Positions 23,143 through 48,320 of a stretch of DNA of 64,000 nucleotides are shown here, in pieces (the stretch's first letter is position 1; each line of letters opens with the position of its first letter). Location of the stretch: positions 695,344 to 759,343 of the forward strand of contig CAUJGJ010000003.1 of NCBI GenBank assembly GCA_963170055.1, read 5' to 3'. The translations under genes were made by a program, and so were the position numbers. This DNA comes from Halisarca cf. caerulea (lineage: Eukaryota > Porifera > Demospongiae > Chondrillida > Halisarcidae). The notes beneath the pieces are model-generated. The model was given only the letters and a program-made list of their open reading frames with translations. It had not been told where the DNA came from and made no database searches.

Positions 23143-23468
23143 TACTGTACACTACATATACTACTGTTCCCTCTCAATACTGTACACTAGTCTACTGCTC
23201 CCTCTCTACACTGTACACTATACTACTGCTCCTTCTCTATACTGTACACTATACTACTGCTCCCTCTCTACACTGTACACTATACTACTGCTCCCTCTCT
23301 ATACTGTACACTATACTACTGCTCCCTCTCTATACTGTACACTGTACTACTGCTCCCTCTCTATACTGTACACTATACTACTGCTCCCTCTCTATACTGT
23401 ACATTATACTACTGCTCCCTCTCTATACTGTACACTATACTACTGCTCCCTCTCTATACTGTACACTG
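23143..23468. repeat. 31-bp satellite, segment 1
   Basis: About ten units of a 31-bp repeat made of a pyrimidine half (GCTCCCTCTC) and a palindrome-like half (TATACTGTACACTATA). The first units are the most divergent. Interrupted on the right by a retrotransposon. Confidence 0.95.
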
Positions 23469-25925
23469 TTTTTTTTTTTACATACATTTTTTTTTACAGT
23501 ATACAAGTTGTAATAATTGAGAAATTGTTGGTACAATCGTAATCAAACTGATGGTTAAATGCAAAATAGTAGGAGCATAAAACGTATGCTGTGGATCATT
23601 GGATAAATACAGCAAATCAAGAGTGAGTGACTACAGCTAACGATATCACACAGGATTAAAGGAAATTACATGCACAAATGATGATGATGGGATACAGTCA
23701 GATTCTAGATTCATACGTGGCGAGCAGTAGGGAATCAGGGGTATTTGGAAATTTGGTGAATCGAGATTCTCGTATGCACATTATAGACGATCGTAGCAAA
23801 GAAGTTTAGGTGGCATCTCAGCCATCGCATGCAGTGGGAGTAAGGTTGTTTTTTCTTCTCTGCTAGCATTGATGCAAGTCGTCTATAGAAGATGGTGGCT
23901 TCTTTTCCCATTCCACCTGATGTACTGAAAATTAGTGGAGTGAAAGATCCGTGATCGATTTCATTGATACACTGTTCATTGGCCCGCTTCTTGATACGCT
24001 CATGTTGAGTATAGGACGAGGTAACAGGAGTGTTTCGATATGAAGGTGCGGTAGGGTTAAAAACCTTTACGTCAAAAAATGCACTTTGGTGTCTGGAACT
24101 CCAAAAACCTTTTGCCCGTACATCAACTCAAGCGTGATCTTCAACATTTGCCGTGGCATACCTGGGGGTGAATCTATCCACCGGCTGCAGTTCAGGCTCA
24201 ATGCACACGTCTGGGCAAACTTCAGAGAGCAAAGTTGCTGTAATGTCCCTTAGTTCGTTATGCCTGTGTGTGGGGAATGCACCTTTTGGGCAACTCAAGG
24301 CATGTTCTACTGAAAAGGGAGCATTACAGGCACAAGACAGTGGAAGACGCTCTGGCAACCAGCCATATCTCAAAGCCACAGCATCCTTAAATTCACTTTG
24401 GTGCAAAGCAAATCCATTTTTCTCTATTGGTGGTGCGGATAGCCATATAGAAGATCCCTTTTCCTTGGCAAACTCAACATTCCTTGCCAGACTTCTGCTA
24501 ATCTCAAGGTTGGATGCCACTTCCTCTTGTTTTGCTCTTCTTTCCAATCTGGTGCTCAACTTTGCTTGTTTCACCTCTGTTGCCATCTCATCTGGAATTG
24601 TGTATACCTTCTCAAGGATGAGATTAACCAGAGAACTTGTGATGCCACGGGAGTTGGCGTACTGCTCATCTGACAACTCTGTAGGGTTGATTAATCCCAT
24701 TCCACCAAGCCGACATGGAAGGGCTAGCAGTTTACGTTCAGCATCGGACACACCCTCACGACCAGTGAGAAAGGGAATCAATTTGTGTCTCATCACTTCC
24801 TCAAGGGGTTCCAACAAAGTGGAGATGTTGGGGATAGTCCTCATTGAGTACTGCCACCTGCTTATCAACCCATGAGTGACAGCTGCATATGCAGCATGGG
24901 GGTCTCTTCTTGCTACTGTACAGAGAATATCTAGTTCCTCCTTCCATTCAATGACTTTACTCTCTACAAACTTGTGACAGAATTCAGTGTCACCCAATGC
25001 CGCACCAAGATGCTTCCGTCCACTCATGGTGATATTCACACCACTTTGGCCAAATAGAGGGGTAGCATTGTCAGCATTCTCTTGTCTGATTATGAGCCAT
25101 GTCTTCTTGGGGTTAGGGTAGTACCCATATCTTGGTCACACTTAATTCAAGTAGTTTCTCCCACCACTGATGAACATCATCAAGAGTGCCTCCAGCGGCA
25201 GCATCGTCTGCAAACCATATTTGATGAGTTTCCCCAAGTTCCTTTATAAGAGGGGTGATTCCGATAGCAAACATGGCCATGGCCAGGGGGTCACCCTGCA
25301 TGACTCCTTCTCTTGACATCACAGTTTCATTCTGTACGTAGAGACTTGCGTCTTCTCTATACAGGTTGGTGAGCGTCACTGCAATGGAGGGGCATATTTT
25401 GTGACAATTAACAAGTGCTAGACGGCGATTCAGCAAGTTGAAAGCATTCTTGGCATCTACTAGGAGGGCTGCTTGAGTATCTTCATTTTCAAGGATGGAC
25501 TTTATGGCATGAACAGCGGCTTCACATCCCGCATCCTGTCCAGCACAGAGCTGGACAGAGCCTGCGACCTCAAGGACATCTGATTTGACAACAGATAAAA
25601 TAGCCTTGCTTATTATTCTCCTTGATACCTCCCCAATGGCAATGGGGCGAACTCCCGGATGCTTGTCAATGGCGATCAATCTGGAGGCTGTGAGGGATGT
25701 GAGTCCCCTGGGATCAACATACTTTGTGCACAACTTCCTTGCTACGAGAGCGATGCTGTTACACAGACTACTAGAGTGGTGTTTGAATGATGTACATAGT
25801 CTCCTCCATCCACTTGCATCAATGCCAGATGGACCAGCAGCACCATTTGTCTTAGAGCAGCTCTCTTGATTGCTTCACCATCGATGCGGTCGAATAGCAC
25901 AGGGTGAAACTCTTTGCCTTCATCT
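23469..25925 (-). mobile_element. RLE-type non-LTR retrotransposon in the satellite, copy A (5'-truncated)
   Basis: The element strand runs right to left. The 3' end is an A-rich tail (two A runs either side of TGTATGT) abutting satellite TACTGTACACTG at 23468; the 5' end stops near 25925, after which satellite resumes as TACTGTACAGTA, so about 12 bp of target is duplicated with two differences. It carries RT and C-terminal nuclease-like coding sequence. The 3' UTR shares TTGATTTG(C/T)TGTA with copy C. Largest of three copies. Confidence 0.85.
23698..25917 (-). pseudogene. Reverse transcriptase with C-terminal RLE-like domain, copy A
   Basis: Order: NGAAGPSGIDASGWRRL (about 25850, in a shifted frame), GVRPIAIGEVSRRI, ALLVDAKNAFNLLNR (motif A), SREGVMQGDPLAMAMF (motif B), IWFADDAAAGG (catalytic DD), then a one-base shift near 25130 into YGYYPNPKKTWLII. 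The 24128-25039 frame ends with CACNAPFSVEHALSCPKGAF (CxC..H..C), RHNELRD, IEPELQP. An in-frame TGA, probably from CGA, precedes VDVRAKGFW and AFFDVKVFNP. A further shift near 23830 precedes PDSLLLATYESRI and the stop at 23698. The CCHC, RHN, EP, D...W and DVKV order resembles the restriction-like endonuclease of R2-type elements (inference). Confidence 0.8.
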
Positions 25926-26180
25926 TACTGTACAGTATACTACTGCTCCCTCTCTATACTGTACACTATACTACTGCTCCCTCTCTATACTGTACACTAT
26001 ACTACTGCTCCCTCTCTACACTGTACACTATACTACTGCTCCCTCTCTATATTGTACACTATACTACTGCTCCCTCTCTATATTGTACACTATACTACTG
26101 CTCCCTCTCTATACTGTACACTATACTACTGCTCCCTCTCTATACTGTACACTATACTACTGCTCCCTCTCTACACTGTA
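25926..26180. repeat. 31-bp satellite, segment 2
   Basis: About eight units, between retrotransposon copy A and the CGCAGG element. Confidence 0.95.
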
Positions 26181-27537
26181 CGCAGGTATGTTATGTCCGA
26201 TCTTGGACATAAACAAAAATGGCCGCCGTTATCGAAGAAGTGAAATCAATAGGTCTTTTTTCCATGTGCACGATTAGTGATGCCCAGAAAATGCTTTGTG
26301 TTATATCTTAAACATGTCTACTTAGTATCTGAATCTTTTAGATTATTGTGCAAGGTCTCAAAACGTCGTATAACCAGTTTTTTCTGACCGTACTTGAAAA
26401 CATAAAAATCCAAAAACGTTGTGGTAGAAACTTAGGCTTTTGGACACAAAACTAGCCTCAAAAGAACACACAGGTACCGAACTTACTAAATCGAATTCAG
26501 GGTCTTCAGGCTCCACTGCATGGCTGTTATGTCCAAGGATTTATACAAAATTTGAGGGTGAGTAGTTACAATCCTTTGGACATAAAGCAAACGGTTCAAC
26601 GTACAAAGACCCTGAATTCGATTCTAGGGGTTTGGTCCTTTGGGAACAATATCTCAAAGTTTCACGCTGAAAATCAGAGATTTCTACCACTGCGATTTTC
26701 GATGAAATTTTCTTGTGGAGCAAGCTGTCTTCCTTCGGGAAAGTCACGTGACATCACATGCAATCCTACAAACAGTACACGAGTTGTGTTCGCGGTGAAA
26801 ACGGTTTTAGTGGAAAAGGTGGAAATGTAGATGGTGGCTTGTAAACCTTACAAAGTGGGTTTGAAGTAATCGTAGGATCAATATCTAGATTTTCACCACA
26901 TACACTTTTGAAATTCTATTGCTTGACTGTTATTTGCAGCATTTTGTGGCTTTCCAGCCAAGACGAGAAATAGTGACGCATATATATGTAATTCGAACAG
27001 AACAAGCAATCAAAAGTATACGCGGTTAAAATTTAGATTTACCTTTTAGAAATCAATCCTTACATTTCTGTAGTCATGACCGCCATCTACTGAGATCTCC
27101 GCCTTTCACGAAGAAATTTGCCTCGTAAAAAGGCTTCTCTCAAGGCTAAATCAATCTTCGTGCATTATACCTTCAGCATACTATCTTACGTATCCCCGTT
27201 ATTGTAAACGAAGGAGTTCAGAAAACATTGTCAACTTCTCTTGAAATCGGATTCTTCCCTGCCAAGATATCCTGTTCATACTTAAGTCGGTAAACCCCAA
27301 ACCTGCCAAAGAAAGCGCTATTATCCATAATCAACGCTTAGAATTTCGCGAACGAAACGTGCTGTGGAGAATTTGGTAGGTAACTCGATAGATAACCCTG
27401 CTTGTTGCGGAGCTTCCTAAGCTGATTCACGTTACTGGCACATGACCAACCCACGCAATTCAGTGATAATGAAATTCATAACGTGAAAACCACAAAGCGC
27501 CCGTGTTTTGGCTAGATTCGGACATAACATACCTGCG
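26181..27537. mobile_element. CGCAGG-family inverted-repeat element in the satellite, 1357 bp
   Basis: Termini CGCAGGTATGTTATG and complement. TA lies on both sides; removing the element and one TA restores an intact satellite unit (ACTG-TA-CACTATA), so the target is known. A second internal inverted repeat around GAATTCAGGGTCTT (26495 and 26610) hints at a nested smaller element. Long internal similarity to 61536-62647 (for example AAGTATACGCGGT). No transposase frame. Confidence 0.9.
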
Positions 27538-30500
27538 TACACTATACTACTGTTCCCTCTCCATACTGTACACTATACTTCTGCTCCCTCTCTACACTGT
27601 ACACTATAGTACTGCTCCCTCTCTCTATACTCTACACTATACTACTGCTCCCTCTCTACACTGTACACTGTACTACTGCTCCCTCTCTATACTGTACACT
27701 ATACTACTGCTCCCTCTCTACACTGTACACTATACTACTGTTCCCTCTCCATACTCTACACTTTACTACTGCTCCCTCTCTATACTGTACACTGTACTAC
27801 TGCTCCCTCTCTACACTGTACACTATACTACTGCTCCCTCTCTATACTGTGCACTATACTACTGCTCCCTTTCTATACTGTACACTATACTACTGCTCCC
27901 TCTCTACACTGTACACTACACTACTGCTCCCTCTCTACACTGTACACTATACTACTGCTCCCTCTCTATACTGTACACTATACTACTGCTCCCTCTCTAC
28001 GCTGTACACTATACTACTGCTCCCTCTCTACACTGTACACTATACTACTGCTCCCTCTCTATACTGTACACTATACTACTGCTCCCTCTCTATACTGTAC
28101 ACTATACTACTGCTCCCTCTCTATACTGTACACTATACTACTGCTCCCTCTCTATACTGTACACTATACTACTGCTCCCTCTCTATACTGTACACTATAC
28201 TACTGCTCCCTCTCTATACTGTACACTATACTACTGCTCCCTCTCTACGCTGTACACTGTACTACTGCTCCCTCTCTATACTGTACACTATACTACTGCT
28301 CCCTCTCTATACTGTAGACTGTACTACTGCTCCCTCTCTATACTGTACACTATACTACTGCTCCCTCTCTACACTTTACACTATACTACTGCTCCCTCTC
28401 TATACTGTGCACTATACTACTGCTCCCTTTCTATACTGTACACTATACTACTGCTCCCTCTCTACACTGTACACTATACTACTGCTCCCTCTCTACACTG
28501 TACACTATACTACTGCTCCCTCTCTATACTGTACACTATACTACTGCTCCCTCTCTACGCTGTACACTATACTACTGCTCCCTCTCTATACTGTACACTA
28601 TACTACTGCTCCCTCTCTATACTGTACACTATACTACTGCTCCCTCTCTACGCTGTACACTGTACTACTGCTCCCTCTCTATACTGTACACTATACTACT
28701 GCTCCCTCTCTACACTTTACACTATACTACTGCTCCCTCTCTATACTGTGCACTATACTACTGCTCCCTTTCTATACTGTACACTATACTACTGCTCCCT
28801 CTCTATACTGTACACTATACTACTGCTCCCTCTCTACGCTGTACACTGTACTACTGCTCCCTCTCTATACTGTACACTATACTACTGCTCCCTCTCTATA
28901 CTGTACACTATACTACTGCTCCCTCTCTACGCTGTACACTATACTACTGCTCCCTCTCTACGCTGTACACTATACTACTGCTCCCTCTCTATACTGTACA
29001 CTATACTACTGCTCACTCTCTATACTGTACACTATACTACTGCTCCCTCTCTACGCTGTACACTGTACTACTGCTCCCTCTCTATACTGTACACTATACT
29101 ACTGCTCCCTCTCTATACTGTACACTACACTACTGCTCCCTCTCTATACTGTACACTATACTACTGCTCCCTCTCTATACTGTACACTATACTACTGCTC
29201 CCTCTCTACGCTGTACACTGTACTACTGCTCCCTCTCTATACTGTACACTATACTACTGCTCCCTCTCTATACTGTACACTACACTACTTCTCCCTCTCT
29301 ATACTGTACACTATACTACTGCTCCCTCTCTACGCTGTACACTGTACTACTGCTCCCTCTCTATACTGTACACTATACTACTGCTCCCTCTCTATACTGT
29401 ACACTATACTACTGCTCCCTCTCTATACTGTACACTATACTACTGCTCCCTCTCTACGCTGTACACTGTACTACTGCTCCCTCTCTATACTGTACACTAT
29501 ACTACTGCTCCCTCTCTATACTGTACACTATACTACTGCTCCCTCTCTACGCTGTACACTATACTACTGCTCCCTCTCTACGCTGTACACTATACTACTG
29601 CTCCCTCTCTATACTGTACACTATACTACTGCTCACTCTCTATACTGTACACTATACTACTGCTCCCTCTCTACGCTGTACACTGTACTACTGCTCCCTC
29701 TCTATACTGTACACTATACTACTGCTCCCTCTCTATACTGTACACTACACTACTGCTCCCTCTCTATACTGTACACTATACTACTGCTCCCTCTCTATAC
29801 TGTACACTATACTACTGCTCCCTCTCTACGCTGTACACTGTACTACTGCTCCCTCTCTATACTGTACACTATACTACTGCTCCCTCTCTATACTGTACAC
29901 TACACTACTTCTCCCTCTCTATACTGTACACTATACTACTGCTCCCTCTCTATACTGTACACTATACTACTGCTCCCTCTCTACGCTGTACACTGTACTA
30001 CTGCTCCCTCTCTATACTGTACACTATACTACTATTCCCTCTCTATACTGTACACTATACTACTGCTCTCTCTCTATACTGTACACTACACTACTGCTCC
30101 CTCTCTATACTGTACACTATACTACTGCTCCCTCTCTATACTGTACACTATACTACTGCTCCCTCTCTATACTGCACACTATACTACTGCTCCCTCTCTA
30201 TACTGTACACTGTCCTACTGCTCCCTCTCTATGCTGTACACTATACTACTGCTCCCTCTCTATACTGTACACTATACTACTGCTCCCTCTCTATACTGTA
30301 CACTGTACTACTGCTCCCTCTCTACGCTGTACACTGTACTACTGCTCCCTCTCTATACTGTACACTATACTACTGCTCCCTCTCTATACTGTACACTATA
30401 CTACTGCTCCCTCTCTACGCTGTACACTATACTACTGCTCCCTCTCTACGCTGTACACTATACTACTGCTCCCTCTCTATACTGTACACTACACTACTGC

Positions 30501-30962
30501 TCTCTCTCTACGCTGTACACTGTACTACTGCTCCCTCTCTATACTGTACACTATACTACTGCTCCCTCTCTATACTGTACACTATACTACTGCTCCCTCT
30601 CTATACTGTACACTATACTACTGCTCCCTCTCTATACTGTACACTATACTACTGCTCCCTCTCTACGCTGTACACTGTACTACTACTCCCTCTCTATACT
30701 GTACACTATACTACTGCTCCCTCTCTATACTGTACACTATACTACTGCTCCCTCTCTATACTCTACACTTTACTACTGCTCCCTCTCTACACTGTACACT
30801 ATACTACTGCTCCCTCTCTACACTGTACACTATACTACTGCTCCCTCTCTATACTGCACACTATACTACTGCTCCCTCTCTATACTGTACACTGTACTAC
30901 TGCTCCCTCTCTATACTGTACACTATACTACTGCTCCCTCTCTATACTGTACACTATACTAC
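27538..30962. repeat. 31-bp satellite, segment 3 (about 110 units)
   Basis: The period of 31 bp is not a multiple of three, so a stop-free unit gives long open frames in all three plus-strand phases (over 1000 codons here). They are not genes. Marker variants recur at multiples of 31: GCTCACTCTC at 29011 and 29631 and CACTACTTCTCC at 29283 and 29903 (both 620 bp = 20 units), and ACACTTTACA at 28371 and 28712 (341 bp = 11 units), showing higher-order duplication. Confidence 0.97.
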
Positions 30963-31351
30963 TTTTTTTTTTATAGTATGTACACCTATGTATAGTATGT
31001 ACACATACACATTATTATTAAATTCAATCAGTACAGTGTCCCTCAACCAGTTACATCAACAACAGAATTAATTATTGGCATAATAGTAAGAAATTATAGT
31101 GAATGCTGTGATTCTTTATTAAGTACAACAAATCAAAGGTGGTGTACAATACATGATAAATACAGATGTCTAATTTAGATCTTTGATTCACAAGTGGCAA
31201 ATAGGAGGGAATCAGGGACATTGGGAAATTGTCTAGCTCTAGATCCTCTGATGCACAAAATTGATGATCGTAAAAGGCTGAAATTAAGCTGGCATCTCAT
31301 CCATCTGATAGTGTCTGCATACGATTCATTTCTCTTGTTAGCCAGAAAGTA
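30963..31351 (-). mobile_element. RLE-type retrotransposon in the satellite, copy C (389-bp 3' end)
   Basis: A poly(T) run at 30963-30972 (element poly(A)) follows satellite GTACACTATACTAC, and the same 14 bp restart the array at 31352. The coding part is the C-terminus: LRGSR-like ILCIRGSRARQFPN, PDSLLFATCESKI. It matches copies A and B at protein level. Strongly 5'-truncated, with a clean target duplication when read against the repeat phase. Confidence 0.88.
31175..31351 (-). pseudogene. C-terminal remnant of the RLE-type retrotransposon protein, copy C
   Basis: Frame: IRWMRCQLNFSLLRSSILCI then RGSRARQFPNVPDSLLFAT, ending CESKI and a stop. Aligns with LRCHLSFSLLRSAVMCLRGS in copy B. Only the last part of the protein is present. 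Confidence 0.8.
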
Positions 31352-31826
31352 GTACACTATACTACTGCTCCCTCTCTACACTGTACACTATACTACTGCT
31401 CCCTCTCTACACTGTACACTGTACTACTGCTCCCTCTCTATACTGTACACTATACTACTGCTCCCTCTCTACACTGTACACTATACTACTGCTCCCTCTC
31501 TACACTGTACACTGTACTACTGCTCCCTCTCTATACTGTACACTATACTACTGCTCCCTCTCTATACTGTACACTGTACTATTGCTCCCTCTCTATTCTG
31601 TACACTGTACTGCTGCTCCCTCTCTATACTGTACACTGTACTACTGCTCCCTCTCTATACTGTACACTGTACTACTGCTCCCTCTCTATACTGTACACTA
31701 TACTACTGCTCCCTCTCTATACTGTACACTATACCACTGCTCCCTCTCTATACTGTACACTATACTACTGCTCCCTCTCTATACTGTACACTATACTACT
31801 ACTCCCTCTCTATACTGTACACTATA
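31352..31826. repeat. 31-bp satellite, segment 4
   Basis: About fifteen units between copy C and the LINE at 31827; it includes more single-base variants than segment 3. Confidence 0.95.
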
Positions 31827-32066
31827 GGTTAGGTTAGGTTAGGAAACTTATTGAAACTGGGAAGGCCTTTAGCCAGAGGCTACTTTACAAGGCACCCAGT
31901 AATTCAGTACAAAAATTAGCTTACTGAATGGTAAACCATTCAGTGATATTGAAATTATAAACGGAAATTAGAAATAAGGTAAATAAATAAATATTAAATA
32001 TAATATATACACCAAGTCATGCAGCAGTACAGAAAGGACACTTTAAGAAAAAAATGAAGAGAGACA

Positions 32067-32544
32067 CTAATGAATAAAATGATCAGATACATTGGATATA
32101 AAACTGGACCAAGATGTAATGTTCCTCACGGACGGTGGAAGACTACGCCAGAGTGAGGCCCCAGAGAATGAGAAAGCATGTCTCCCAAAAGTAGAGCGCA
32201 CATGAGGAAGATTGACGGTGGAAGATGACTGAGTAAAGTGTTGGTGATGGGAAGAAGGGAGGGGAACAAAGAAGTGAGATAGGGAGGCTGCTGTGAATGG
32301 GTACACTTGTGCATCAGGCGGGCTAGATGTATCTTGCGGCGGATTGCAAGTGTTGTCAGACCCAGATCAGATCTTGCAGCAGTGGCAGACTCATGTCTCT
32401 GGCGACGTAGTACCACACAGCAGGCATAGTTGAGAAGAGTCTCCAAACACTGAGCATCTTTCTTAGTACAGGAGTCCCAAACGACATCGCAGTAGTCCAA
32501 AAAGAACTAGCAAAGATTGAGGAAGGAACCAAGATAAGCGCCGA
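32067..32544 (-). pseudogene. LINE C-terminal region downstream of the nested element
   Basis: Continues the RT protein after the insertion: RRLSWFLPQSLLVLF, then after a frameshift DYCDVVWDSCTKKDAQCLET and LLNYACCVVLRRQRH; the last part (FSFSGASLWRSLPP, SNVSDHFIH and stop) is in a further frame. The same blocks occur in the LINE at 11646. At least two frameshifts. Confidence 0.75.
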
Positions 32545-33274
32545 CGCATGTGGGACATGTCCAGATTTGTTATGATAACGCTCCTGAGTTTGCATAGTGA
32601 TAAAACATTATTTTTCGGCGCCTACAAGTTATTAGTCATGCATTTATCTCGTGATTTAGACTGATATTCAGGCGTATACGAATACCAAATCCGCGTTTAG
32701 TGACGTTTTGTGTCGTCACGGTTGCTCTGTCACATGCTCGCTTGTGACTAAACTGAATGTTCTTCGGAATTTTAGTTTTCGGCTGGGTGATGCACAAGGG
32801 AACAAGCTAGAGGCAGTTTCTTGGTGCCAACTTTGAGCCATCTGGAGGATACAACTTTTCCATGTGGCAGCAAGAAAGCTTTTGTTCCTGTCCTAAGTTA
32901 TAGGCGCTTGAAGTTTGTCTTTTGAGGGCCAATATTACAGATCTCGGCTTTGGAGAGGAATTGTCTTTGCTGCCGCATGGAAAAGTTAGTAAATGTTTTG
33001 CTATAGCGATTTATGTGCAAAAGTAGTCTTGAAAGCGTTCCTCCATCTATCACCCAAAGCGTTTCGCTTTGTAGTAGGGGTTAGTAAAACTTTAGTAGCT
33101 TCTGCGCGCTTGAATCAGGTCTTTCAAAAGGGTAATCGTCGGAACGCTTATGTGTCTGCCTACATGTTAAGCCTACGTTTGACGCTCTGAAGCTTCTGCA
33201 AGTTGAGAACAGAAGCTGTAAAAATGACCGAAATTTTCACACCTTCGAATTAGCGCGGACATGTCCCACATGCG
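32545..33274. mobile_element. CGCATG-family inverted-repeat element in a LINE, 730 bp
   Basis: Perfect termini CGCATGTGGGACATGTCC. GA on both sides (32543-32544, 33275-33276). Removing the element and one GA gives a LINE reading CLLRRLSWFLPQ, confirming the 2-bp target duplication. Same orientation relative to the LINE as the copy at 16886. Confidence 0.92.
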
Positions 33275-34088
33275 GAAGAAGACAGATGCTACGAGAGACT
33301 TTCCACGAAATGTAATCAATATGGTCAGACCAAGTGAGAGTATCGTTGATAATGACCCCAAGAAACTTGAATGAGGAGACTTGATCAATTTGAGAGCCAA
33401 GGAGGTAAAGATTAAGCGGTGGTAAGTCACGTTTTCGTGAAGAATGGATAAGCATGCACTTGGACTTAGTAGTGTTCAGTTTCAGACAGTTATCCATCAT
33501 CCAGAGACAGGTAGCATCAAGACTGGACTGAAGAGCAGACGAGATCTTGTGGACATCAGTACCACTGATAAAGATGGTAGTATCATCAGCATAGAGCACT
33601 GTCGTTGAAGAAGGTAAAGCTTGTGGGAAGTCAATAATGAAGGTGGAGAATAAAGAGGGGCCCAAAACTGACCCTTGAGGAACACCGGCTAAAGGAAACC
33701 CAGGAGAGGAGCGACATTCATCAAGGCAAGTGATTATGGAACGGTCCTGAAGGTAAGAGTGGAACCAAGCAACCACAGAAGAATCTAGACCCAGGGATTG
33801 AAGCTTTGATAGAAGGAGGTTGTGGTTTACTGTATCAAAAGCCTTGGAAACATCGAGAAACACCACACCTATGACACGACGATTGTCAAGGGCTTTATAC
33901 CAGGAGTCTGTACAATGCAACAGAGTTGAAGAGGTGGAGTAGCCAGGACGAAAGCCAGACTGGAGGGGGTAGTAGAGGTTGTTGGCATTAAGGTGTGAGG
34001 TTAGTTGACTCTGAACACACTTCTCAAGGAGTTTGCTCTGCTGGCAGGATGGAGATAGGTCTGTAGTTGGAGGGACAGGACCGATCAC
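33275..34088 (-). pseudogene. LINE reverse transcriptase core, split and frameshifted
   Basis: LQSGFRPGYSTSSTLL, VVFLDVSKAFDTVNHN (motif A), AGVPQGSVLGPSLF (motif B), VLYADDTTIFI (YADD), FKFLGVIINDTLTWSDH, ending KVSRSICLL at the nested element. All RT core motifs are intact, so the copy is fairly young. It joins the upstream frame (34024-35892) through a one-base shift near 34045, between RPISILP and KLLEKCV. Confidence 0.85.
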
Positions 34089-35892
34089 CAGACTTGTGGA
34101 GAGGCCTGACTAGAGAAGTCTTCCAGAGAGATGGAAAAGTGGAGGACGCGAGAGATGAGTTCAAGATATGACAAACGGGACCACTGAGAGAGGAAGAAGC
34201 AACACGTAGAGCTAAAGAAGGTATATTATCAGAGCCAGAACAGCGGCTGAGTATGAGGTTGCTTAACGCTTCTTGGCACCATTGGACAGTCACTGGCTCA
34301 AGAGATAAGCTAGCTGGTGGAGGATCAGTAGATGGAGGAGGATAACTTATCGGCAAATCATCAGAAGGGGAACTGGTAGACACAAAGTGGGTATTAAGGC
34401 TGTTGGCAGCAGATAAGACATTAGCCTCAGACAGACTCGGGATGGCGGGTGCTGTTGAAGAACTGGGTACAACTGACTTCAGAGTCTTCCAAAGCACAGC
34501 TGGACTGGAGTTGTTAGAGATGAGGGTGAGGAAATACTGCTTCTTGGCTTGTCTCTGGAGAGTTACAACACGATTACGTTGTGCAGTGAAAAGATGCCAG
34601 TCAGAAGGGCATTTCGTGGAACGAAACTTCCTTAGTAACTTATTCCTTATATCCATTTCATCACGAACAGATTTGCTAATCCAAGGTGCAGGGTTCTTTT
34701 TAGAGCGGAAAGACTTGAAAGGAGCATGTAGTGACAGGGCATCATTAAGCAAGGAATTAAACACTAACAACTTGTCATCAACATCATCAAAAACGTTAAG
34801 AACAGACCACGGTAGCCTGGCAACTTCCTCATCAAACAAGACGGGGTCAAAGTTTTTGAAAGATCGTTTATGGATGGTTTTTGTAAGGTGCTTTGGGGTT
34901 TGCCAAGACACAGTTAGAAAGATGGGAAGGTGATCAGAAAAGTAACTATCGATTACACCAGAGGAAACCACCGGAGTGTTGGAGGAAGCTAGAAACAGGT
35001 CAAGAATGGATGTAGATGAGCTGGAAAGACGGGTGGGTTCACAGATGGGCTGAATTAAACTATAGTTGGATATAAACTGTTGGAAGGTACTGGTGTAGGG
35101 TTTACAGGCGTCTGATACATCAACATTGAAATCACCACAAGCAATGACAAATCGCTTACAAGACAGCAAACCTTCGATACTAGCAAAAACATCATTCAGA
35201 GACCGAATACCCGACTGAGGTGGACGATAAAAACAACCGATAACAAAATTGGAAGGAAGGTGCTTTAAAGAGAGTGAGATCCAAATACACTCCAGGCCAG
35301 AAGGTAGGGAACACGATTCGACAATGGAGCTTGCGATCGAGTTTGATACGTACATAGCAACACCGCCTCCTTGGCGATTTCGGTCGTTCCTGTGGAAGTT
35401 AAAGCCCGGTACAGCGACTTCACTGTCAGCGATAGAGGAGTCCAACCATGATTCAGAGATGGCAATGACATGAGGCTTACAGGATGACACCAAAAGCAGC
35501 AGGTCTTCATAATGGCGAACAAGACTACGAGTGTTGACATGGATTATCTTCAAGCGGCAGTCCTTCTTCAATACTCTGGTCGTCCTCATAGAGTCATGTG
35601 GCCCAGGATTTAGTTCCACATCCCCTGATAGCCATACAGTAGCATGACAGAGGCTGGTGGTAAGATGGAAGGATTCCCTCAGCAATTTCGATTTCTTGAC
35701 TGAAGCACAGAGGTGTGAAAAAGAGTCACTGTGGGGATATCGCAACAGTAGCGATGGAGAAGAGTGACATCTCAAAGCCAAAGCAATCCACCGATGACGA
35801 AAAGCCTCATTGACATCAAAAAACAGGACAGCGTTCAATAAAATTGACAAAATAACCAGGGAACAAAACGCGTGACTTGCGCAAACCACCAA
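34024..35892 (-). CDS. LINE ORF: hydrophobic N-terminus, 2A peptide, EEP endonuclease, start of RT
   Basis: Residue numbers count from 35892; there is no ATG before the 2A. Residues about 8-26 are hydrophobic (FCSLVILSILLNAVLFF). The 2A peptide LSGDVELNPGP lies at about 88-98 (35599-35625), with ribosome skipping expected before the last Pro. Endonuclease blocks follow: HVNTRSL, ISESWLD, GCFYRPPQSG, ACGDFNVD and SDHLPIF. RT begins with RPLHKSGDRSCPSNYRPISI. Non-LTR elements with 2A have been described in sponges and sea urchins, where 2A may also act within a signal sequence. The frame breaks at the 3' end by a single-base shift. Confidence 0.88.
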   Translation of the reverse strand: MVVCASHAFCSLVILSILLNAVLFFDVNEAFRHRWIALALRCHSSPSLLLRYPHSDSFSHLCASVKKSKLLRESFHLTTSLCHATVWLSGDVELNPGPHDSMRTTRVLKKDCRLKIIHVNTRSLVRHYEDLLLLVSSCKPHVIAISESWLDSSIADSEVAVPGFNFHRNDRNRQGGGVAMYVSNSIASSIVESCSLPSGLECIWISLSLKHLPSNFVIGCFYRPPQSGIRSLNDVFASIEGLLSCKRFVIACGDFNVDVSDACKPYTSTFQQFISNYSLIQPICEPTRLSSSSTSILDLFLASSNTPVVSSGVIDSYFSDHLPIFLTVSWQTPKHLTKTIHKRSFKNFDPVLFDEEVARLPWSVLNVFDDVDDKLLVFNSLLNDALSLHAPFKSFRSKKNPAPWISKSVRDEMDIRNKLLRKFRSTKCPSDWHLFTAQRNRVVTLQRQAKKQYFLTLISNNSSPAVLWKTLKSVVPSSSTAPAIPSLSEANVLSAANSLNTHFVSTSSPSDDLPISYPPPSTDPPPASLSLEPVTVQWCQEALSNLILSRCSGSDNIPSLALRVASSSLSGPVCHILNSSLASSTFPSLWKTSLVRPLHKSGDRSCPSNYRPISILPAEQTP

Positions 35893-35910
35893 TTTTTTGG
35901 GGTCTCAACG

Positions 35911-36183
35911 ATACTACTGCTCCCTCTCTATACTGTACCCTATACTACTGCTTCCTCTCTATACTGTACACTATACTACTGCTCCCTCTCTATACTGTAC
36001 ACTATACTACTGCTCCCTCTCTACGCTGTACACTATACTACTGCTCCCTCTCTACGCTGTACACTATACTACTGCTCCCTCTCTATACTGTACACTATAC
36101 TACTGCTCCCTCTCTATACTGTACACTATACTACTGCTCCCTCTCTACGCTGTACACTGTACTACTGCTCCCTCTCTATACTG
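35911..36183. repeat. 31-bp satellite, segment 5
   Basis: About nine units between the LINE 5' end and retrotransposon copy B. Confidence 0.95.
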
Positions 36184-37622
36184 GATACATTCCTAATCCC
36201 TCCAAAACTTGGCTCATAGTCAAGGAGGATGTTTATGATGAAGCCAAAGTGGCTTTTGCTAACAGTGGAATTAATATCTCATCCTCTGGTCGTAAACATC
36301 TCGGCTCAGCTCTTGGAAAGTCTGCATTTGTACAGGATTTCCTGGAAGCCAAGGTTGTTAAATGGAGCAAAGAATTGGAGCTTTTGACAACTATTGCGAA
36401 GACAGAGCCTCACACCGCCTACTCAGCCCTTACTCATGGGCTTATGAGCAAGTGGACATACATAATAAGAACCACCCCTGAGGCATCCAGTCTTCTTACC
36501 CCTCTGGAAGACATTCTTAGGCACAAGTTCATCCCAGCAATTACAGGCAGAAGATCCATTACTGATGTAGAGCGGGAGTTGTTTGCCCTGCCTTGCCGAT
36601 TGGGTGGCCTGGGTATCCCCAATCCAACCATTGTCTCCGACTCTTACTACAATACTTCATTTGAGATTTCTGCACCACTTGTACAATCGATCATTGAAAG
36701 CAAGTATCAATATTCCAGTGATGTGGAGCTTGAGCAAAATCACATCAAGTACTCAATGAAGAAGCGCAAACGAGAGCAGCAGAATGACGATGCAATGAAC
36801 TTGAGGCCACCTGACACACTGAAGAGAGCAATGGAGCTAGCAAAGGAGAAAGGGTCGTCTAGCTGGTTAACAGCTCTACCCTTGGAGTCCCATGGGTTTG
36901 CTCTACACAAGAGTTCCTTCAGAGATGCACTGTGTCTCAGGTATGGGTGGCAACCTGAACGTCTGCCTACACGGTGTGACTGTGGTGATGCCTTTACTGT
37001 CGATCATGCACTCAATTGTCCGAGAGGTGCTTTTCCAACAATAAGGCATAATGAAGTCAGAGATTTCACTGGGCAGCTGTTGACAGAGGTGTGCCATGAT
37101 GTTTGTATTGAGCCTGTACTGCAACCCCTCGAGGGTGAAAGACTCGATTTGGCCAGCTCAATCAGAGATGACAATGCCAGGACAGACATTCGGGCTAGGG
37201 GATTCTGGGGATGTAGCCATCAGTGTGCATTTTTGGACGTAAAGGTTTTTAACCCCAACGCACAGACCAATCGGAAGTTCCCCTTAGCCGCTTGTTATCG
37301 TCATCATGAGAAGATGAAGAAGAGAGCCTATGAGCAGCGAGTCACAGATATTGAACATGGCTCCTTTACCCCACTGGTGTTTAGCACCACGGGTGGAATG
37401 GGGAAGTTGGCTGATACGTTCTACAGACGTCTAGCTTCACTTGTTTCGGCCAAGAGAGACCAGCCATACCATCAGATCATGGGTTGGCTCAGGTGCCATC
37501 TCAGCTTTTCCCTGCTTCGATCAGCAGTGATGTGCCTCAGAGGATCACGATCATCCTCCAGATTTGCCCCCAGATGTCCTGATTCTATTGACCTTGCAAT
37601 CAGCGAGGCTAGAATCATCTAA
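36183..37622 (+). CDS. RT C-terminus plus RLE-like domain, intact frame, copy B
   Basis: Starts inside the protein at GYIPNPSKTWLIVKED, downstream of the RT catalytic DD, which is lost. Conserved blocks: SSGRKHLGSALG, YSALTHGLMSKWTYIIRTTP, ELFALPCRLGGLGIPNP, KEKGSSSWLTALPLESHGFA. C-terminal: RCDCGDAFTVDHALNCPRGA (CxC-x7-H-x4-C), RHNEVRDFTGQL, CIEPVLQPL, ARTDIRARGFW, AFLDVKVFNP, HGSFTPLVFSTTGGMGK, LRGSRSSSRF and a stop at 37622. No stop or frameshift over 479 codons. The open frame extends upstream only because the satellite is stop-free. A finger followed by a D/E-rich nuclease core fits RLE-type elements; the exact clade is undetermined. Confidence 0.8.
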   Translation, partial: GYIPNPSKTWLIVKEDVYDEAKVAFANSGINISSSGRKHLGSALGKSAFVQDFLEAKVVKWSKELELLTTIAKTEPHTAYSALTHGLMSKWTYIIRTTPEASSLLTPLEDILRHKFIPAITGRRSITDVERELFALPCRLGGLGIPNPTIVSDSYYNTSFEISAPLVQSIIESKYQYSSDVELEQNHIKYSMKKRKREQQNDDAMNLRPPDTLKRAMELAKEKGSSSWLTALPLESHGFALHKSSFRDALCLRYGWQPERLPTRCDCGDAFTVDHALNCPRGAFPTIRHNEVRDFTGQLLTEVCHDVCIEPVLQPLEGERLDLASSIRDDNARTDIRARGFWGCSHQCAFLDVKVFNPNAQTNRKFPLAACYRHHEKMKKRAYEQRVTDIEHGSFTPLVFSTTGGMGKLADTFYRRLASLVSAKRDQPYHQIMGWLRCHLSFSLLRSAVMCLRGSRSSSRFAPRCPDSIDLAISEARII

Positions 37623-37768
37623 CTTTATTATATTAATTACTATATACATTGTGTACTAACCAGATATTAGGTGCTTTGTACTAATCAGTTATGTATTTTG
37701 CATGTCATTTATCTCAATTACATCATTTTTGTATAAAATTTTATTAATAATTGATATATTTGAAAAAA
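36184..37768 (+). mobile_element. RLE-type non-LTR retrotransposon in the satellite, copy B (5'-truncated)
   Basis: Opposite orientation to copies A and C. The 5' junction is satellite CTATACTG followed directly by RT sequence; the 3' end is a short A run (about 37763-37769) followed by CACTATACTACTG. Relative to the repeat phase about 3 bp of target (TAC) is missing rather than duplicated. The 3' UTR is only about 145 bp and AT-rich. Confidence 0.85.
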
Positions 37769-40700
37769 ACACTATACTACTGCTCCCTCTCTATACTGTA
37801 CACTACACTACTGCTCCCTCTCTATACTGTACACTATACTACTGCTCCCTCTCTATACTGTACACTATACTACTGTTCCCTCTCTACGCTGTACACTGTA
37901 CTACTGCTCCCTCTCTATACTGTACACTATACTACTGCTCCCTCTCTATACTGTACACTACACTACTGCTCCCTCTCTATACTGTACACTATACTACTGC
38001 TCCCTCTCTATACTGTACACTATACTACTGCTCCCTCTCTTCGCTGTACACTGTACTACTGCTCCCTCTCTATACTGTACACTATACTACTATTCCCTCT
38101 CTATACTGTACACTATACTACTGCTCCCTCTCTATACTGTACACTATACTACTGCTCCCTCTCTACGCTGTACACTGTACTACTGCTCCCTCTCTATACT
38201 GTACACTATACTACTGCTCCCTCTCTACGCTGTACACTATACTACTGCTCCCTCTCTATACTGTACACTATACTACTGCTCCCTCTCTATACTGTACACT
38301 ATACTACTGCTCCCTCTCTACGCTGTACACTGTACTACTGCTCCCTCTCTATACTGTACACTATACTACTGCTCCCTCTCTATACTGTACACTATACTAC
38401 TGCTCCCTCTCTATACTGTACACTATACTACTGCTCCCTCTCTACGCTGTACACTGTACTACTGCTCCCTCTCTATACTGTACACTATACTACTGCTCCC
38501 TCTCTATACTGTACACTATACTACTGCTCCCTCTCTATACTGTACACTATACTACTGCTCCCTCTCTATACTGTACACTGTACTACTGCTCCCTCTCTAT
38601 ACTGTACACTATACTACTGCTCCCTCTCTACGCTGTACACTATACTACTGCTCCCTCTCTATACTGTACACTATACTACTGCTCCCTCTCTATACTGTAC
38701 ACTATACTACTGCTCCCTCTCTACGCTGTACACTGTACTACTGCTCCCTCTCTATACTGTACACTATACTACTGCTCCCTCTCTACGCTGTACACTGTAC
38801 TACTGCTCCCTCTCTATACTGTACACTATACTACTGCTCCCTCTCTATACTGTACACTACACTACTGCTCCCTCTCTATACTGTACACTATACTACTGCT
38901 CCCTCTCTATACTGTACACTATACTACTGCTTCCTCTCTTCGCTGTACACTGTACTACTGCTCCCTCTCTATACTGTACACTATACTACTATTCCCTCTC
39001 TATACTGTACACTATACTACTGCTCCCTCTCTATACTGTACACTACACTACTGCTCCCTCTCTATACTGTACACTATACTACTGCTCCCTCTCTATACTG
39101 TACACTATACTACTGCTCCCTCTCTATACTGTACACTATACTACTGCTCCCTCTCTATACTGTACACTGTACTACTGCTCCCTCTCTATACTGTACACTA
39201 TACTACTGCTCCCTCTCTACGCTGTACACTATACTACTGCTCCCTCTCTATACTGTACACTATACTACTGCTCCCTCTCTATACTGTACACTATACTACT
39301 GCTCCCTCTCTACGCTGTACACTGTACTACTGCTCCCTCTCTATACTGTACACTATACTACTGCTCCCTCTCTATACTGTACACTATACTACTGCTCCCT
39401 CTCTATACTGTACACTATACTACTGCTCCCTCTCTACGCTGTACACTGTACTACTGCTCCCTCTCTATACTGTACACTATACTACTGCTCCCTCTCTATA
39501 CTGTACACTATACTACTGCTCCCTCTCTACGCTGTACACTATACTACTGCTCCCTCTCTACGCTGTACACTATACTACTGCTCCCTCTCTATACTGCACA
39601 CTATACTACTGCTCCCTCTCTACGCTGTACACTGTACTACTGCTCCCTCTCTATACTGTACACTATACTACTGCTCCCTCTCTATACTGTACACTATACT
39701 ACTGCTCCCTCTCTACGCTGTACACTATACTACTGCTCCCTCTCTATACTGTACACTATACTACTGCTCCCTCTCTACGTTGTACACTATACTACTGCTC
39801 CCTCTCTATACTGTACACTATACTACTGCTCCCTCTCTATACTGTACACTATACTACTGCTCCCTCTCTATACTCTACACTGTACTACTGCTCCCTCTCT
39901 ATACTGTACACTATACTACTGCTCCCTCTCTATACTGTACACTATACTACTGCTCCCTCTCTATACTGTACACTATACTACTGCTCCCTCTCTATACTGT
40001 ACACTATACTACTGCTCCCTCTCTACGCTGTACACTGTACTACTGCTCCCTCTCTATACTGTACACTATACTACTGCTCCCTCTCTACGCTGTACACTAT
40101 ACTACTGCTCCCTCTCTATACTGTACACTATACTACTGCTCCCTCTCTATACTGTACACTATACTACTGCTCCCTCTCTACGCTGTACACTGTACTACTG
40201 CTCCCTCTCTATACTGTACACTATACTACTGCTCCCTCTCTATACTGTACACTATACTACTGCTCCCTCTCTATACTGTACACTATACTACTGCTCCCTC
40301 TCTACGCTGTACACTGTACTACTGCTCCCTCTCTATACTGTACACTATACTACTGCTCCCTCTCTATACTGTACACTATACTACTGCTCCCTCTCTATAC
40401 TGTACACTATACTACTGCTCCCTCTCTATACTGTACACTGTACTACTGCTCCCTCTCTATACTGTACACTATACTACTGCTCCCTCTCTACGCTGTACAC
40501 TATACTACTGCTCCCTCTCTATACTGTACACTATACTACTGCTCCCTCTCTATACTGTACACTATACTACTGCTCCCTCTCTACGCTGTACACTGTACTA
40601 CTGCTCCCTCTCTATACTGTACACTATACTACTGCTCCCTCTCTATACTGTACACTATACTACTGCTCCCTCTCTATACTGTACACTATACTACTGCTCC

Positions 40701-42530
40701 CTCTCTATACTGTACACTACACTACTGCTCCCTCTCTATACTGTACACTATACTACTGCTCCCTCTCTATACTGTACACTATACTACTGCTCCCTCTCTT
40801 CGCTGTACACTGTACTACTGCTCCCTCTCTATACTGTACACTATACTACTATTCCCTCTCTATACTGTACACTATACTACTGCTCCCTCTCTATACTGTA
40901 CACTACACTACTGCTCCCTCTCTATACTGTACACTATACTACTGCTCCCTCTCTATACTGTACACTATACTACTGCTCCCTCTCTATACTGTACACTATA
41001 CTACTGCTCCCTCTCTACGCTGTACACTGTACTACTGCTCCCTCTCTATACTGTACACTATACTACTGCTCCCTCTCTACGCTGTACACTGTACTACTGC
41101 TCCCTCTCTATACTGTACACTATACTACTGCTCCCTCTCTACGCTGTACACTATACTACTGCTCCCTCTCTACGCTGTACACTATACTACTGCTCCCTCT
41201 CTATACTGTACACTATACTACTGCTCCCTCTCTACGCTGTACACTGTACTACTGCTCCCTCTCTATACTGTACACTATACTACTGCTCCCTCTCTATACT
41301 GTACACTATACTACTGCTCCCTCTCTACGCTGTACACTATACTACTGCTCCCTCTCTATACTGTACACTATACTACTGCTCCCTCTCTACGTTGTACACT
41401 GTACTACTGCTCCCTCTCTATACTGTACACTATACTACTGCTCCCTCTCTATACTGTACACTATACTACTGCTCCCTCTCTATACTGTACACTGTACTAC
41501 TGCTCCCTCTCTATACTGTACACTGTACTACTGCTCCCTCTCTATACTGTACACTATACTACTGCTCCCTCTCTATACTGTACACTATACTACTGCTCCC
41601 TCTCTACGCTGTACACTATACTACTGCTCCCTCTCTATACTGTACACTATACTACTGCTCCCTCTCTACGCTGTACACTGTACTACTGCTCCCTCTCTAT
41701 ACTGTACACTATACTACTGCTCCCTCTCTATACTGTACACTATACTACTGCTCCCTCTCTATACTGCACACTATACTACTGCTCCCTCTCTATACTGTAC
41801 ACTATACTACTGCTTCCTCTCTATACTGTACACTATACTACTGCTCCCTCTCTATATTGTACACTGTACTACTGCTCCCTCTCTGTACTGTACACTATAC
41901 TACTGCTCCCTCTCTATACTGTACACTATACTACTGCTCCCTCTCTACACTGTACACTATACTACTGCTCCCTCTCTATACTGTACACTGTACTACTGCT
42001 CCCTCTCTACACTGTACACTATACTACTGCTCCCTCTCTATATGTACACTGGACTACTGCTCCCTCTCTATACTGTACACTGTACTACTGCTCCCTCTCT
42101 ACACTGTACACTATACTACTGCTCCCTCTCTATACTGTACACTATACTACTGCTCCCTCTCTATACTGCACACTATACTACTGCTCCCTCTCTATACTGT
42201 ACACTATACTACTGCTTCCTCTCTATACTCTACACTATACTACTGCTCCCTCTCTATACTGTACACTATACTACTGCTCCCTCTCTATACTGTACACTAT
42301 ACTACTGCTCCCTCTCTACACTGTACACTATACTACTGCTCCCTCTCTATACTGTACACTGTACTACTGCTCCCTCTCTACACTGTACACTATACTACTG
42401 CTCCCTCTCTATATGTACACTGGACTACTGCTCCCTCTCTATACTGTACACTATACTACTGCTCCCTCTCTATATACTGTACACTGTACTACTGCTCCCT
42501 CTCTATACTGTACACTATACTACTGCTCCT
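37769..42530. repeat. 31-bp satellite, segment 6 (about 153 units)
   Basis: Longest segment, stop-free in three frames. Higher-order structure: the rare variant TCGCTG follows CTCCCTCTCT at 38041, 38940 and 40800 (spacings 899 = 29 units and 1860 = 60 units), and ACGTTGTAC at about 39777 and 41389 (1612 bp = 52 units). Around 42036-42055 and 42410-42425 shortened units (TATATGTACACTGG) recur, marking a further internal duplication near the edge. Confidence 0.97.
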
Positions 42531-44188: not shown

Positions 44189-44476
44189 CATACCAACCTG
44201 TGTACATGTACCAACCTGTGTACATGTACCAACCTATGTACATGTACCAACCTGTGTACATGTACCAACCTGTGTACATGCACCTACCTGTGTACATGTA
44301 CCAACCTATGTACATGTACCAACCTGTGTACATGTACCAACCTGTGTACATGTACCAACCTGTGTACATGTACCAACCTATGTACATATACCAAGCTATG
44401 TACATGTACCAACCTATGTACATGGACCAACCTATGTACATGGACCAACCTATGTACATGTACCAATCCGTGTATA
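44189..44476. repeat. 18-bp minisatellite, segment 1 (16 units)
   Basis: Unit CCTGTGTACATGTACCAA with the palindrome GTACATGTAC. 18 is a multiple of three and no phase has a stop, so long open frames exist on both strands; none is a gene. Confidence 0.95.
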
Positions 44477-45041
44477 TATTTGCCAACCTATATGTGTTTA
44501 GATGTATTCTAAAGCTTTCTAACATCTGTAATACCACGGAACTGGAAGAAAAATTGGTTCTTGAACTTTGTCATTTCCATCTAAGCCTCGCTAATGTCAG
44601 GTGACTTTGCTCACGAGGTTGTAATACATTGTACTTTAAAGTCTTCCTATGAACGTTTGCTAACATTCATTGCTTGGACTTTTGACGTTCTTGTTTATTC
44701 ATGGATTGTGCTGTTTGTTACTTTACTCTGAAAAGCCTCAAGTTTTCAGAGGTTTTGCAAATTGAATGAACCCTGAGCCTCAGAGAGAGCTTTGTAAGTT
44801 TCTAAACTATGCACTTTTGAGTAGTTCTATAGCTCATTACCAATAGCGGGTGTGACCACAAGTTTGCTCATTTCTTTGTCCTCACTCTTCTAAACTCGGG
44901 CGACACCCTGAACTATCCCAACACAACAAGTATTAGTCTTTCAATCTAGTATCAATCTTTCATTCAATCCAAAGAAGCTAGCATAGTCAACAGATAACAG
45001 GTGCCTTCATGGAGGTGTGAAAACCCCATTGGTATTCATTA
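44477..45041. repeat. Segmental duplication flank, copy 1 (partner 48434-49025)
   Basis: Follows an 18-bp array in both places, with the same order (GTGTTTAGATGTATTCTAAA, TTCTTGAACTTTGTCATTTC, TTACCAA, CAATCTAGTATCAATC) and then a CGCATG-family element at the same point. The array, flank and transposon were therefore duplicated together. Confidence 0.85.
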
Positions 45042-45640
45042 CGCATGTGAGACATGTGCGTGATAAGTTGGAGGTGTAAAAATTTCGCTCTTTTACCGTC
45101 TTTGTTCTGAACTTGTAGAAGCTTCAGACCATCAAACAAGGGCTTAACATGTAGGTAGAGGCATAAACGTTTCGAGAATCACCATTTTAAAAGATCTAGT
45201 TTATTTACAAAGACGTTAGTGTGATTTACCTAACCCCTACTAAAAAGTGAAACGCTTTGGGCTCAAGATGGTGGAATGCTAAGACTATTTAATCAAATTG
45301 CCATAGCGAAACATTTACTAACTTTTCCATGCGGAGGCATTGACAACTCTGCTCCAAAGCCGAGATCTGTAGAAACGACCCTTAAACAGCAAAATTCAAG
45401 CAGTTATAATTTAATTGCGACAGGAGTAATGGTTCTTTTGCCTCCGCTAGGAAAAGCTGTATAATATTATAACAAATGGCTCAAAGTTGGCGCCTATAAA
45501 CCGTCTCCATCTTGTTCCTACATGTTGCGCTCTGCCGAAAACCAGAATTCCCAAGGGCATCCAGATAGGTCCCAGGCCAGCATGTGACAGAGTTTAACGT
45601 GACAACAGAAAACATCACTAAACACAGATTCGGTACGCAG
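45042..45640. mobile_element. CGCATG-family inverted-repeat element, 3'-truncated
   Basis: Left end CGCATGTGAGACATGTGC. The internal sequence follows the 49026 copy up to AAACACAGATTCGGTA, after which the last part and the right terminus are missing and CGCAGGTATTACATATG follows, possibly the edge of a CGCAGG-family remnant. A poly(C)/poly(T) tract is at about 45700-45717. Confidence 0.7.
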
Positions 45641-45805
45641 GTATTACATATGCACATGCGAGGTGTAAACAAAATGGAGCCCCAAAAGTCTGCTGAAATC
45701 CCCCCCCCCCCTTTTTCTTCCGTTCTGTTATGTTACGAGTCCTGAGAAGGACATCAGACATCGTTACAACTATTAAATGTTACATTTCTTAATACAATTG
45801 TTTAC

Positions 45806-47409: not shown

Positions 47410-47411
47410 TA

Positions 47412-48320
47412 CGGTATAGAACAAAAAAAAGTTAACGTGAAGAGTTTTTATTACGTTTATCTTACGCCGTGATCGCGGAGCTGATACGCGGTGATCACGG
47501 AGCTGGTACGCCGTGATCACAGAGCAGGTACGCCGTGATCACGAAAATTCGCGTCGTGATCACAGAAGCTCAGGACCGTGATCCAGTTGCTCTACACCAC
47601 AAGAAACTGCACTGAAGGCGATTAAACCTTACTTTGATGTCGATGTGAATCCACACGATACGAAAATGATACAAGGACAATCGCGCACTGCACCGTTTCT
47701 CCAGAGTACGGGGTCAATTTGAAGCGAAAGAATCCAGAAACAGTAATTTAACAATATGAACGATTATTAAGTAGTACTCTTCTCGAACGCGTGCACCCTA
47801 CAGTTAGGAGCATCTTCTGCGGATCATGTAGAACAGCATGAAGCGAGCAGCCATGTTATTTTCAGTATATTTTCCGGATATTTCTGCGCACTAGTCTACC
47901 CATTTCCAGGAGAGCGCGATCTGGCGTATAGACTATTTCCTTGCTTCGCGGCAGGTAAAATGTGCCTGCTTGTTTACATTGAAGACGATGTCAATCCTTT
48001 TGAATAAAAACTATCGATTCATTGTTTAATATAATCAAGTGATCAAGTGCAAAATTTCTTTGTCCAACTCGAGGAAGACGAAGACGATGTGACATCCACG
48101 TTTGGCTAGAGTAGAAGTCCTAAAGCTAGAAAACGTCGTTGGTAAGATCACCTGTAGCCTCTTAGCGTAATACCGTTTTCTTCTAAAGCGTAATCACGTA
48201 TCTATCGCGGCGTGATCACTGAGCTCCTACGTCGTGATCACGGAGCTCGTACGTCGTGATTACGAAGCTCCTACGTCGTGATCACTTTACTTCACGTAAA
48301 CTTTTTTTCGTTCTATACCG
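47412..48320. mobile_element. TA-flanked element inside the 18-bp array, with inverted subterminal repeats, 909 bp
   Basis: Termini CGGTATAGAACAAAAAAAAG and the complement of CGGTATAGAACGAAAAAAAG. TA on both sides restores the unit AACC-TA-TGTACATG when removed. Next to each end are three to four 22-bp units with a GTGATCAC core (TACGCCGTGATCACGGAGCT-like), inverted relative to each other, the layout of transposase-binding sites. No transposase frame. Confidence 0.9.

Follow-up and report, generated by a model that had tools for sequence, protein, structure and literature searches.

Window positions 23153-42529 of the 64,000-nucleotide stretch analysed here (the window; C3:695344-759343, C3 being its contig in Halisarca cf. 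caerulea) are occupied by a 31-bp minisatellite that is interrupted by five insertions. Three of these, copies A, C and B, are related non-long-terminal-repeat (non-LTR) retrotransposons, and an earlier, sequence-only reading proposed that they form one family with the 31-bp repeat as its home. The question raised by this locus is what kind of target brings such elements into the array. We found that the 31-bp satellite is just one among many sites used by a clade of elements, probably of the type carrying a restriction-like endonuclease (RLE), whose copies appear to prefer tandem arrays with GTAC in their units, with 3' junctions at GT^A (the caret marks the junction). This account is better supported than the claim of a 31-bp home: the earlier observation was mostly right, its interpretation was too narrow and in one point it was wrong.

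Three copies in one minisatellite

The positions and strands of the three copies, their 5' truncation, their A-rich 3' ends and the 31-bp repeat on both sides of each were all confirmed, and a protein search together with three DNA searches using the 3' parts gave no fourth copy in the window. The copies and their parts, including the reverse transcriptase (RT) core and the 3' untranslated region (3'UTR), are as follows.

23469..25925, minus strand: copy A, a 5'-truncated, probably RLE-type element running from RT core to 3'UTR, A-tailed
25116..25874, minus strand: copy A, RT core frame (RVT_1)
24131..25135, minus strand: copy A, frame with thumb, linker, CxC-x7-H-x3-C, RHN and EP
23738..24127, minus strand: copy A, last frame, with DVKVFNP
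30963..31351, minus strand: copy C, the 3' end of a third subfamily, A-tailed
36184..37768, plus strand: copy B, a 5'-truncated element with an open C-terminal frame to 37622 and a 3'UTR, A-tailed
36942..37622, plus strand: copy B, C-terminal zinc knuckle and RLE-like segment

The copies share less than had been supposed. Copy A, which is split over three reading frames, is the only one with an RT core (RVT_1, 1e-7); copy B begins just past the RT catalytic motif, at GYIPNPSKTW, and copy C consists of the 3'UTR and about 56 C-terminal codons (estimated from where its match overlaps the frame of locus L025), so the RT blocks described as common to them are not. The C-terminal motifs RHN, EP, D..ARGFW and DVKVFNP are present as described, but the zinc motif has three residues rather than four before its last Cys (C-x-C-x7-H-x3-C). 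DNA identity is 64% between A and B (724 nt) and 72.5% between C and A (131 nt); the tree puts A and B on separate branches, and C, which is too short for it, was placed via its 94-98% relatives L021, L022 and L025. Judged by these comparisons, the three copies do not form one family but are degenerate members of three subfamilies within one clade.

Reading the target duplications from the flanks, we obtained 12 bp for copy A and 14-15 bp for copy C, both in array phase, and for copy B either a 1-bp loss or a 30-bp duplication. The 3' junctions are GTAGT^ACAGTG for A (in a variant 31-bp unit with a second GTAC), GGAGC^AGTAG for C and CTGT^ACAC for B. A and C point the same way and B the opposite way, with 3' junctions at different points of the 31-bp unit, and these phases and orientations rule out specificity for a single phase of the unit. 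A and B nevertheless both stand at GT^AC, in opposite orientations.

Copies lie in many kinds of tandem array

We searched the genome (194 Mb, 454 contigs) with the copy B protein, which gave 92 scored places, the best of 1917 candidates, and with the 3' parts of the copies as DNA (26 matches for B, 15 for A and 27 for C). Sequence was taken from 42 of the 92 B-protein places (L001-L042), 15 A-search places (L043-L057), 8 B-type places (L058-L065), 12 C-type places (L066-L077) and three later places. Relatives of the three copies are spread over many contigs, and the flanks of the 50 clade copies scored are arrays or varied DNA, with no one fixed site. Of these 50, only A, B and C themselves lie in the 31-bp satellite. 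Exact 35-mers of this repeat occur 552 times in forward and 0 times in reverse orientation, and those among the matches listed are all on C3, whereas copies with 96-100% identity to B or C were found on different contigs, in different arrays (L058, L059, L063, L064, L025, L057). The units of the arrays measure 9 bp (L063, L070, L075, L014), 13 bp (L062), 14 bp (L024), 16 bp (L052), 17 bp (L025, L058), 20 bp (L017), 22 bp (L057), 23 bp (L064), 26 bp (L047, L019), 28 bp (L069), 31 bp of a different sequence (L013), 33 bp (L050, L016), 37/41 bp (L021), 41 bp (L046), 48 bp (L022), 53 bp (L020) and 96 bp (L015).

Scoring a copy as array-associated when a tandem repeat of period at least 7 started no more than 60 bp from its 3' end, we found arrays at 27/50 clade copies, 1/20 L2-like elements and 0/11 copies of sister RLE clades (Fisher test, 8.5e-7). 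In the tree all 14 array-flanked rows fall in one 36-row clade with support 100/99. An identical unit flanks single copies on both sides at L017, L020, L024, L025, L047, L052 and L063, which indicates insertion into pre-existing arrays. Clade copies have a real preference, lying immediately beside or inside tandem arrays far more often than the control elements. Taken literally, the genome search suggested by the sequence-only reading gave the outcome which that reading had named as refuting it, in that most scored copies lie outside the 31-bp satellite. A preference for tandem repeats (27/50 versus 1/31) stands, many of the remaining copies being in other arrays that share GTAC.

The sample of 50 leaves out duplicates (L044 and L066-L068, from C3:808-818 kb, and L054-L056), the N-filled L007 and L048, L012 and L023 with unclear 3' ends, and L046 and L051, whose arrays begin some 95-115 bp beyond the end of the match and which were kept in the motif analysis below. 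L099, L100 and L101, found later and array-less, are also outside it. The sister-clade sample omits L035, L037, L038 and L041, whose 3' ends are unclear, and the 20 L2-like controls were picked, non-randomly, from 45 matches for reaching the 3' end. Misplaced anchors wrongly scored L003 as 'yes' and C as 'no' in the 60-bp array count, where the errors cancel, and L004 is a 'no' regardless.

Nearly all the arrays carry GTAC, and A-tailed copies mostly join at GT^A

The unit contains GTAC in 28/29 arrays adjacent to clade copies and in 13/40 arrays elsewhere (P = 4e-8), and TACTG in 23/29 and 6/40 respectively (P = 9e-8), the 40 background arrays being taken from the window and the distal parts of fetched loci and not from random places. 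GTAC lies no more than 30 bp from the 3' end in 35/50 clade copies, 6/20 L2-like elements and 0/11 sister-clade copies, and TACTGT/ACAGTA no more than 50 bp away in 20/50 clade copies versus 1/31 controls; these GTAC and k-mer counts carry the three misplaced anchors (L003, C, L004).

Within arrays the pre-insertion site can be read from periodicity. The 3' junction was GT^A in 11/15 array copies with a clear A tail, against 2.43 expected if every non-A position of their arrays is taken as possible (P = 5e-7), and G[T/C]^A in 12/15. We read the nick as GT^A because the last A of ...GTA| may belong to the target or to the tail. The excess stays significant after multiplication by 64 triplets. 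Five copies outside the 15 could be read via their target duplications, and 3/5 of these were GT^A against a background of 0.018 (P = 5.6e-5), the junctions being TGC^A (L003), GGT^AC (L004), TGC^A (L009), AGT^A (L020, which has one extra base next to the junction) and TGT^A (L065, used with one inserted base); the duplications of L002, L018, L026, L047, L049 and L061 were too unclear to be used. Junctions within arrays are thus non-random, consistent with a sequence-specific nick at GT^A. A fixed distance between nick and GTAC was also considered and rejected: the nearest GTAC starts anywhere from -15 to +12. The GT^A excess emerged once the A-tailed copies were considered by themselves.

The element resembles the R2 group

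Complete-looking relatives mostly encode about 1000-1200 amino acids. A Cys-rich N-terminus is followed by the RT and then, at the C-terminus, by a zinc knuckle accompanied by RHN, EP, R-x-D and D-V/I-K/R. At E 0.05, RVT_1 was matched in 9/9 full-length relatives, one of which (P0077) scored below the curated cut-off, and R2 proteins were the best PDB matches of the RT profile (E 1.7e-5), as expected of a non-LTR type RT; the 8 matches of this profile up to E 10 include no L1 protein. No N-terminal apurinic/apyrimidinic endonuclease (APE) was detected as an Exo_endo_phos match in the 9 full-length relatives, although the same library detects one in the L2-like element of the window. Across 22 rows C-x-C..H..C, RHN, R-x-D and D-V/I-K/R are invariant or nearly so. 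The C-terminal profile matched only 8ibw and 8gh6 in PDB, weakly (E 1.1, 1.2), in an alignment that covers the zinc knuckle, RHN and EP (residues 934-991). Both entries are titled 'Reverse transcriptase-like protein', and we take them to be R2Bm. As R2 is the best PDB match of the RT and the C-terminal profile matches only R2-type sequences, the clade is likely to be an RLE-type (R2-group-like) non-LTR retrotransposon, as the sequence-only reading had it, and its C-terminus fits a putative RLE.

The fixed 3' end, the 5' truncation of A, B and C and the target duplications agree with target-primed insertion. Beyond A and C, duplications were found at L003, L004, L009 and L057. Lengths of about 9-15 bp occur in the clade. 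Longer exact duplications flank L020 (121 nt) and, in direct orientation, L031 (at least 184 nt). L031 is a sister-clade element that is complete to its N-terminus. At about 570-3035 of L004 lies a B-type copy with a target duplication, whose frame joins the N-terminal part directly to the region after the RT core; this is apparently an internally deleted element that was inserted in its deleted form.

The N-terminal Cys-rich domain had no convincing match in Pfam or PDB. A PHD finger (P0077) or a SAND domain (P0120) takes the place of the Cys-rich N-terminus of P0006, P0009 and P0014, which by domain content we read as an exchange of chromatin- or DNA-reading modules.

A model for target choice and its alternatives

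Taken as a whole, the explanation we consider probable is that an R2-group-like RLE clade settles in GTAC-bearing arrays, where it would nick at GT^A(C) and insert by target-primed reverse transcription. Opposite GT^A(C), the C-terminal RLE would nick the strand that serves as primer; the A tail of the RNA could pair with the resulting 3' end in ...T, and reverse transcription would be primed at this end. Because GTAC is its own complement, either strand could be nicked, which would give both orientations in the window. The array preference would be set at target choice, by GTAC density, by array reading through the N-terminal Cys-rich domain, or by both. A bolder and more tentative version is that the clade recognises minisatellites as a class, i.e. 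the protein, perhaps through its N-terminal Cys-rich module, reads repeated GTAC-type sites and nicks GT^A in any array with the motif, in either orientation and irrespective of the remaining unit sequence.

Several points weigh against the favoured explanation. An array is missing at the 3' end of 23/50 clade copies, and there are array-less subfamilies inside the clade, namely L005/L006/L011 and L008-L010 (0/6) and a third made up of L099 and L100, which match L023 in their 3' sequence; the array habit is therefore not universal. Among the sister clades, L033 has a 134-bp array 242 bp beyond its protein match (scored 'no') and L038 is surrounded by 36-64-bp repeats. All 3' ends were placed by eye, several sister-clade ones having no clear tail. 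GTAC no more than 60 bp away separates the groups weakly (39/50 clade, 9/20 L2-like and 7/11 sister-clade copies; P 0.016), as GTAC is common in the genome. The GT^A motif was chosen after inspection and then tested; C (GC^A), L019 (CC^A), L017 (CT^A) and L069 are exceptions among the 15, L026 is not GT^A, and when unclear 3' ends are included GT^A is found in 11 of 26 array copies (P 4e-4). Finally, since two other elements sit in the same 31-bp array, the residence of A, B and C there is weak evidence unless controls are considered.

Much of this could be accounted for if only a short site of about GT^A(C) were read and arrays were hit because much genomic GTAC lies there, with no recognition of arrays, an alternative to which we give a little less than an even chance. 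It would explain GT^A at the junctions, including those of L004 and L065, which are both outside arrays; moreover, in a pooled sample weighted towards the window, arrays contain 47% of the GTAC sites (58% in the window when 23.0-42.6 kb is excluded), so that motif preference alone may suffice for the array habit. However, without the window only 9% of GTAC sites lie in arrays, compared with 27/50 copies, and the units also favour TACTG, which goes beyond bare GTAC. Insertion anywhere, with array copies surviving because no gene is harmed, seems improbable to us. The presence of a DNA transposon and an L2-like element in the window array, together with the many array-less copies, would suit such a safe haven, but L2-like elements under equal selection are found beside arrays in 1/20 cases and sister RLE clades in 0/11, and survival predicts neither GTAC in nearly all the units nor GT^A junctions.

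It is more improbable still that the arrays grew after insertion from expanded target duplications. In its favour, such duplications are short direct repeats, and L020 has a 121-nt exact duplication at its flanks; against this, the same unit stands in many copies on both sides, insertions of several kinds, five in all, interrupt the 31-bp array, and a GTAC array in which no element was detected exists at 44191-48432. Least credible is specificity for the 31-bp satellite, the original proposal, which we all but dismiss. In its favour, one array holds three insertions of three subfamilies, plus the duplicates at C3:808-818 kb, but the confinement of the repeat to C3 among the matches listed and the close relatives of B and C in arrays on other contigs speak against it, and neither residence of most copies in the 31-bp satellite nor a single phase was found. 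Preference for GTAC-bearing arrays with a nick at GT^A(C) thus remains the reading we favour.

The 31-bp array and other loci

The 31-bp array and its two other insertions, a DNA transposon with terminal inverted repeats (TIRs) and an L2-like element, are arranged as follows (array segments by TRF).

23153..23467, plus strand: 31-bp array, left of copy A
25926..26181, plus strand: 31-bp array, copy A to DNA transposon
26182..27536: TIR DNA transposon in the 31-bp array
27537..30962, plus strand: 31-bp array, DNA transposon to copy C
31352..31826, plus strand: 31-bp array, copy C to L2-like element
31827..35910: L2-like APE element in the 31-bp array
35911..36183, plus strand: 31-bp array, left of copy B
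37769..42529, plus strand: 31-bp array, right of copy B

The TIR element (26182-27536) has 19-bp TIRs and a GTAC target duplication, i.e. it is an unrelated transposon that also uses GTAC. The L2-like element (31827-35910) has a GGTTA-type tail on the minus strand, and an insert with 18-bp inverted ends (32545-33274) sits inside it. An 18-bp GTAC-bearing array (GTACATGTACCAACCTGT) at 44191-48432 is interrupted by other sequence, and a protein search of it gave no copy of the A/B/C clade. At C3:808655-818389, copies of A and C occur once more together with the 31-bp repeat (L044, L066-L068); they are 99-100% alike and represent a local segmental duplication.

In public prokaryote contigs relatives were found at one locus (L098, 52% identical), and the viral contigs searched contained none. 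The L098 contig is filed under a Candidatus Poribacteria metagenome-assembled genome; Poribacteria live in sponges, and the contig is perhaps animal host DNA in the bin.

Comparison with known systems

The clade resembles R2 (R2Bm, R2Tg), the closest solved RT, in its C-terminal zinc knuckle followed by RHN...EP, one long frame, Cys-rich N-terminus, 5' truncation and insertion into repeated DNA. It differs in its target, which is 28S ribosomal DNA (rDNA) for R2 and arrays with GTA(C) here, in having an A tail, and in the Cys-rich N-terminal module, which is different from that of R2 and is replaced by PHD or SAND in relatives. R9Av is an R2-family element with a changed site according to the review PMC12203849, and the title of a paper cited there ascribes an exceptionally long target duplication to R9 elements; the duplications at L020 and L031 are comparable, but the R9Av target is rDNA in rotifers, unlike that of the clade described here.

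The sequence-only reading also spoke of a new target class, which is too strong. According to PMC4640811, Togen ((TG)n), YURE (a U2-derived satellite) and some HERO elements are RLE elements that likewise insert into simple or tandem repeats; compared by description alone, each uses one kind of repeat, whereas here many units share a short palindrome. The long interspersed element (LINE) L1-CS of Cuscuta europaea inserts into the CUS-TR24 satellite, its 5' and 3' ends offset by about 13-16 bp through target duplication (PMC8091179). It too is a heterogeneous lineage at preferred positions of a satellite unit, but belongs to the plant L1 lineage and uses TTCTA/TTTCAA sites in one satellite, whereas the present clade is R2-like and uses GT^A(C) in many arrays.

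Among the literature matches listed, which include few subscription papers, we found no RLE clade in several kinds of minisatellite with a shared nick motif. If minisatellites are indeed recognised as a class, this target class would be a tetranucleotide in tandem and not one repeat sequence. A clade that settles in many minisatellites would provide biochemistry with an RLE whose preferred nick is compact and palindromic, and its copies would form a natural record of the minisatellites of the genome. The target-specific RLE elements compared here are, in the parts of the literature consulted, each bound to one multicopy sequence, and a clade using many minisatellites via a short motif would show how dependence on a single target can be escaped while genes are still avoided.

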